From positions 1 through 32,373 of the forward strand of contig JAQVQA010000006.1 of NCBI GenBank assembly GCA_028701835.1: DNA of 32,373 nt, read 5' to 3'. The position numbers and the translations under genes are program-made. Numbering within the stretch: the first letter of the stretch is position 1; each line of letters opens with the position of its first letter. The notes under the pieces were generated by a model. The model made no database searches. It worked only from the letters and a program-made list of their open reading frames with translations, and was not told the DNA's origin. This document shows positions 24,161 to 24,865 of this stretch, in pieces. The stretch comes from Candidatus Iainarchaeum sp. GTDB taxonomy: Archaea; Iainarchaeota; Iainarchaeia; Iainarchaeales; JAAZKV01.

Positions 24161-24238
24161 AAAAAAATAATTAAATCGAGCAAAATAAAAACACTACCCC
24201 TAAAATAAAAAAATATTATTAAATAATTAAAAAAAATA

Positions 24239-24310
24239 TGCAGTTGCCGGGAATTGAACCCGGACCGCGACCTTGGGAAGGTCGAATCATAACCATTTGA
24301 CCACAACTGC
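24239..24310 (-). tRNA. tRNA-Gly (anticodon CCC)
   Basis: GCAGTTG/CAACTGC acceptor, CGACC-TTCCCAA-GGTCG anticodon arm, CCGGG-TTCAATT-CCCGG T arm. Confidence 0.93.
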
Positions 24311-24408
24311 AATTATTTTACAATAATACTATTCAAACTTCTTTTTTTAATTCTTTCAATTCAACAGTTTTTTAAATAAAACGATAGAAAATTTAGATAT
24401 TAGAGGTG

Positions 24409-24660
24409 CTAAGTAAAACTTAGTATTCTACTCATTGCCCTATAATGAGTAAGTAATTCAATGTAAAAACCATTGATTTTACGATGCGCCACAAAACCAA
24501 ATGGTTTTGTTTGATTGCGCACTTGGACAAGGCGCGAGGCTATCAAAGATAGCCAAGTTTTTAGTGCACGTTTAATTGTAGCACAATTAAAAGTGCAAGG
24601 GCTACCAAAGGTACCCAAAATTTTAATGCATGTTTAATTGCACCAGGCAATTAAAAATGC
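24409..24660 (+). ncRNA. Candidate structured RNA: tandem stem-loop repeat array immediately 5' of tRNA-Cys
   Basis: Eight back-to-back inverted repeats: 24409-24423, 24430-24450, 24458-24476, 24486-24520, 24538-24554, 24566-24596, 24599-24616, 24628-24660. TATA-like tttaaataaa at 24371-24380. Confidence 0.6.
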
Positions 24661-24728
24661 AGGGTTAGCAAAGCGGTTATGCGTTCGCCTGCAGAGCGAA
24701 TTAGGGGGGTTCAACTCCCTCACCCTGC
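24659..24728 (+). tRNA. tRNA-Cys (anticodon GCA)
   Basis: GCAGGGT/ACCCTGC acceptor, TTCGC-CTGCAGA-GCGAA anticodon arm, GTTCAACTC T loop. Confidence 0.93.
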
Positions 24729-24865
24729 TTAATACCCAAAATAAATTTATTAATTTAAAAGCCTCTTAACAAGCTTTTTAAAGGTTTCATGGGAGAATTA
24801 ATTTACAAAGTGCTTGAAAAAAGCTTTTTTAAAAAAAACAATTTTAATTATAAGTGGTGAGCGAA

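Follow-up and report, generated by a model that had tools for sequence, protein, structure and literature searches.

Rickettsia palindromic elements and REP/BIME sequences are small dispersed palindromes, some of which reside in RNA genes. The Iainarchaeota element described here differs from them in that a Y1 transposase is missing in most carriers, the fold is different, and in-frame insertion is not the rule. Closer counterparts are found in mitochondria. Double-hairpin elements (DHEs) of Allomyces (Paquin et al. 2000, cited in PMC4478555 and PMC7218506) and repetitive hairpin-forming elements (RHEs) of sponges (PMC2800124 and PMC7218506) are tiny, non-coding, intergenic sequences of one or two hairpins that are optional among relatives and have no known transposase, all of which applies to the Iainarchaeota element as well. 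The latter is distinguished from DHEs and RHEs by its archaeal genome, a conserved bulged-U hairpin combined with a pseudoknot, long target duplications, and a position flush with the ends of tRNA and RNase P RNA genes. The mobile GC clusters of yeast mitochondria resemble it in being ~42 nt long, foldable, and mobile, and in that clusters merge (PMC4478555), whereas its stems are far more diverse. Besides, GC clusters are flanked by repeats of 2 to 3 bp (AG or ACT) (PMC4478555), but the flanking repeats here are 21 to 72 bp long, and the element is therefore not a member of the GC-cluster family. Like the DHE/RHE/GC-cluster kind, it consists of dispersed short hairpins without a gene whose presence is optional between close relatives. 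The mitochondrial DHEs and RHEs and the yeast GC clusters are the nearest in anatomy, and bacterial palindromic elements also belong to the nearest kinds known. In the archaeon Caldiarchaeum, a mobile element disrupted a tRNA gene and left a displaced 5' tRNA fragment (PMC3293823); that element is 1.8 kb long and carries a recombinase gene, in contrast to the gene-less element of about 45 bp considered here. We found no earlier description of the latter in Diapherotrites/Iainarchaeota in the open-access papers searched, and the pseudoknot, the long variable target duplications, and the tRNA-end placement appear to be new.

Hairpin array upstream of tRNA-Cys

In a 742-kb draft genome, the window, i.e., the whole stretch of 32,373 nucleotides that was analyzed, corresponds to contig C24. 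Directly 5' of its tRNA-Cys(GCA) gene (24659..24729, plus strand) stands an array of hairpins (24405-24661). The left neighbor of this array is a tRNA-Gly(CCC) gene (24238..24311, minus strand), and a gene predicted from the sequence to encode ribosomal protein L10e lies downstream of tRNA-Cys. Upstream of the array, a putative TATA-like promoter box (TTTTTTAAATA; 24368..24378, plus strand), recognized by the archaeal promoter consensus, can be aligned with the corresponding box before tRNA-Cys of relatives without the array, in agreement with a preliminary description that had placed such a box near 24371. Since the hairpins lie between this box and the tRNA, the array and tRNA-Cys may belong to one precursor. 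The folding energy of positions 24400 to 24658 was -83.9 kcal/mol, versus -53.0 ± 4.3 in 200 dinucleotide shuffles (z = -7.2), none of which was as low.

All the stems quoted in the preliminary description were found at their positions, and the compensated pairs reported there hold in the hairpins. RNA folding added three further hairpins on the plus strand (24405-24427, 24429-24451, and 24453-24482; 24405..24482 overall), which extend the array. Three units with clamps had been proposed; those at 24560-24596 and 24621-24660 indeed belong to the same family, whereas GCGC-ACAAAACCA/TGGTTTTGT-GCGC (24486..24520, plus strand) is another hairpin, with a second dispersed copy in a tRNA flank on contig C19 of this genome. 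The distal unit consists of hairpin A, GGCTATC-AAA-GATAGCC (24538..24554, plus strand), and hairpin B, TTTAGTGCACG-TTTAATTGT/ACAATTAAA-AGTGC (24560..24596, plus strand), a member of the dispersed TTTAGTGCAGG family. In the proximal unit, hairpin A is GGGCTACCAAAGGTACCC (24599..24616, plus strand), a member of the GNGCTRCCNAAGGYGCNC family, and the 3' clamp of hairpin B (24621..24660, plus strand) overlaps the first two bases of tRNA-Cys. The two A-B units form a tandem duplication (46 nt, 80% identity, period 62). The proximal element ends at the 5' end of tRNA-Cys, which its last 2 to 3 nt (GC/GCA) overlap. The earlier statement that no standard RNA family is present held as well, the Rfam search of the window giving the two tRNAs alone; at gathering and permissive thresholds, only tRNA and RNase P RNA were matched, and the hairpins were unmatched.

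The third unit had also been read as continuing into the 5' part of tRNA-Cys, and tRNA-derived repeat amplification had been offered as one possibility. In such a case, foldback hairpins and the 5' part of tRNA-Cys would have been copied jointly by slipped replication. The stretch in common turned out to be GCA(A)GGG only, beyond which the array holds no tRNA-Cys fragment. Partial tRNA copies do lie beside hairpins at other tRNAs in these genomes, but hairpin A recurs across the phylum whatever the tRNA sequence, and A-B copies away from tRNAs have flush duplications of their own. Because hairpin A and the flanks of hairpin B are dispersed motifs that match nothing in tRNA-Cys, we regard such an amplification as most improbable. 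Instead, it is very likely that non-autonomous mobile elements of Iainarchaeota, all of them very small, have accumulated in the array in tandem and nested fashion, situated between the tRNA-Cys promoter and the 5' end of the gene.

Dispersal and covarying fold

Searches for the unit, a check envisaged in the preliminary description, gave further copies at other genes, in relatives too. Counted by fixed patterns in draft metagenome assemblies, hairpin A (GNGCTRCCNAAGGYGCNC) occurred 35 times in 11 of the 87 genomes of the class, versus 2 occurrences of the reversed control. The long-B pattern TTTAGTGCAGGTTT (≤1 mismatch) had matches, part of them due to chance, in all 10 genomes of the family. 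The hairpin was also found in assemblies named Candidatus Diapherotrites or Iainarchaeum, which places the organism in Iainarchaeota (DPANN). Fixed patterns with reversed controls were used instead of a covariance model because the B stems were too variable for MAFFT alignment.

In an element unit, about 43 to 65 bp in all, a short linker joins hairpin A to hairpin B. The unit has no terminal inverted repeats, and its structure is asymmetric. Hairpin A is 18 nt long, GNGC-U-RCC-NAA-GGY-GCN'C, with the bulged U (T in DNA) in all 41 copies. Among these copies, positions 2 and 17 form GC in 29, TA in 8, and AT in 2, and positions 6 and 14 form AT in 28 and GC in 9; the search pattern imposed no pairing at either of these covarying pairs.

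The B stem was distinct in 28 of the 31 resolved copies and complementary throughout, complementarity being itself a criterion for locating B in this set. Compact copies show complementarity between the linker and the loop of B, which gives an H-type pseudoknot, and its compensated pairs include TCAC/GTGA, ACGTC/GACGT, ACCTC/GAGGT, GCCC/GGGC, and TCGCC/GGCGA. The linker/loop complementarity was 7.97, versus 2.50 ± 0.68 with loops permuted among copies, and none of 5,000 permutations reached the observed value; this permutation leaves kinship among copies in place, and the linker/loop pairs differ even within a single genome (G014). The pseudoknot evidence covers the compact copies; those of the window represent the longer B variant, TTTAGTGCAGG-[stem]-AGTGC, for which 17 distinct, perfectly complementary stems were found among real copies. 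Recent copying from one master was not seen, as the B stems differ too much between copies.

At one locus (L160 in G041), one hairpin is seemingly nested within the B hairpin of another element, which suggests that elements insert into each other.

Target duplications, empty sites, and placement at gene ends

When the two flanks of each of 40 copies were compared, 7 copies exceeded the 99% control level, versus 0.4 expected. Four copies are framed by direct repeats of 21 to 72 bp whose distance from the element ends is 0 to 7 nt. The repeats of 72, 49, and 21 bp finish exactly at the start of A and resume 0 to 3 nt from the end of B, and a 33-bp direct repeat is offset from the element by 6 to 7 nt. 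For the 49-bp duplication, found in G009, the homologous gene is present in seven relatives. All six of those with sequence past the stop codon have unrelated sequence there, with neither the element nor a second 49-bp copy, so that, among the compared homologues, both are confined to G009. In the window array itself, no target duplication is visible. The syntenic interval bounded by tRNA-Gly served for the empty-site comparison here: the spacing from tRNA-Gly to tRNA-Cys is 347 bp in the window versus ~95 bp in G001 of the same genus, where the array is missing, as it is at tRNA-Cys of G006. At tRNA-Cys of G004, G005, and G007, the number of units is one to three, and the B stems differ. Presence at the same site is thus optional between close relatives.

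Copies show a clear polarity toward RNA genes. A tRNA end follows hairpin A by 25 to 43 nt in 12 of the 41 A copies, with B toward the gene in every one; in 10 of them this is the 5' end of a tRNA on the same strand, and in 2 it is the 3' end of one on the opposite strand, the latter arrangement being seen in two more copies (L205 and L213). In other Iainarchaeota (Diapherotrites, DPANN), units were located at the 5' ends of tRNA-Asp, -Glu, -Thr, -Gly, and -Ser and, on the opposite strand, at the 3' ends of tRNA-Leu and -Trp and of RNase P RNA. Copies found with the array as the query lie at tRNA-Leu 3' ends (G001 and G003), tRNA-Asp (G005), and RNase P RNA (G008). Likewise, long-B copies are flush with the 5' ends of tRNA-Glu, -Arg, -Cys, -Thr, -Asp, and -Gln and, on the other strand, with the 3' ends of tRNA-Leu, tRNA-Trp, and RNase P RNA, and such a placement, with B toward the gene, holds for most of them. 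Other copies are at protein-gene boundaries, either past stop codons or shortly before start codons. This gene-end placement may reflect either an insertion preference or the survival of harmless insertions. One long-B element (L244, position 1598, G007) was observed within the intron of a tRNA-Leu gene.

The role linked to Cys that had been suggested for the array could not be maintained, because the unit is also at many other tRNAs, RNase P RNA, and protein genes and is missing before tRNA-Cys of G001. A conserved functional tRNA leader, in which A and B would act on the end processing of pre-tRNA, by guiding or protecting it, or control the supply of tRNA-Cys, would account for the A/B units before tRNA-Cys in G000, G004, G005, and G007 and, by our reading of the sequence, in G014 of another family, for B being flush with mature tRNA ends, and for the compensation that keeps the fold. 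We nevertheless consider it unlikely in view of the tRNA-Cys genes of G001 and G006, which have no unit, the copies beside protein genes, those that face 3' ends of tRNA and RNase P RNA from the opposite strand, and the flush target duplications. The resident copies may still have a part in tRNA processing. Even less credible is an immobile cis-acting RNA (riboswitch-like or an mRNA processing signal) repeated by chance. Indeed, a hairpin combined with an H-type pseudoknot is a fold typical of regulatory RNAs, gene starts follow shortly after some copies, and in Thermoplasmata predicted surface-protein genes are preceded by the same 18-nt hairpin, but the adjoining genes are unrelated, both orientations are present, and the target-duplicating insertions have empty sites.

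Other repeats were observed in the course of this survey. A second structured repeat, GATGCAAYACCTTTTCTAAAGGGRTTGCGGYGTTA, has its end exactly where duplicated 3' fragments of tRNAs (e.g., GATTCCCTACGGGCTCG) are located downstream of intact tRNAs, at L033 1740 (G000 tRNA-Lys), L123 3152 (G005 tRNA-Gly), L096 636 on the minus strand (G001), and L054 (G000 tRNA-Arg), its 5' extent varying among copies. In a third tRNA-flank family (L002, L090, L096, L100, L138, and L143), a hairpin of the form GAACCTTTTT..AAAAAGGTTCGCGAAA comes after duplicated 5' fragments of tRNAs, which lie upstream of the intact tRNAs. Downstream of tRNA-Gln at L043 (G000, contig C31) and tRNA-Val at L107 (G003), tandem units of ~100 bp each close with a copy of the tRNA 3' end. 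In Thermoplasmata (L182, L186, L191, and L192), the 18-nt hairpin GGGCTACCRAAGGTGCCC is part of a longer conserved motif and, at L182 and L192, precedes long predicted surface-protein genes; it had no match in Rfam and is a candidate structured RNA.

Candidate enzymes and possible mode of insertion

Several enzymes were considered as mobilizers. The Y1 (HUH) transposase (PF01797) does not track with the elements and is missing from most positive genomes; it was not found in the carriers G000, G005, G007, G008, G014, G023, and G034. A reverse transcriptase (RVT_1, PF00078), such as a retroposon spreading by target-primed reverse transcription would need, was found in no hairpin-A-positive genome, a source in another cell or virus being possible. 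Tyrosine recombinases occur in nearly all genomes and are therefore not discriminating; in several carriers, the sole one is common to nearly all genomes of the order and is probably XerA. Furthermore, a tRNA-integrating element of a tyrosine integrase does not fit, as there is no single fixed att sequence that would regenerate the tRNA, the duplicated sequence differs per insertion, and many targets are not tRNAs.

The observations above show the fold and the mobility of the elements. Insertion duplicates a variable target stretch of about 21 to 72 bp, and B abuts RNA genes with its outer end. An enzyme might recognize RNA or ssDNA in its folded, single-stranded form and insert it at staggered cuts with variable offset. 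We infer that this kind of insertion fits better than classical cut-and-paste transposition, because terminal inverted repeats are missing, the structure is asymmetric, and the duplications are long and variable. Copies would persist mainly at gene borders, since an insertion there, with its duplication, would keep the gene intact. The copies in the window would ride passively in the pre-tRNA leader and be removed by 5' end processing. Only tentatively do we propose a new class of transposition, possible but rather doubtful at present, in which a gene-less folded strand of ~45 nt (hairpin plus pseudoknot, RNA or ssDNA) would be inserted at RNA-gene ends with long variable duplications by an enzyme of the host or of the symbiont's host.

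These elements would rank with the smallest known mobile elements of archaea. Their stems change freely yet remain compensated, which suggests that spread keeps structure rather than sequence. How such long and variable duplications arise without any transposase or reverse transcriptase to match is a concrete question of mechanism. Besides, by settling where tRNA and RNase P RNA genes end, beside duplicated tRNA pieces, the elements offer a testable origin of the disrupted and fragmentary tRNA genes of DPANN archaea.
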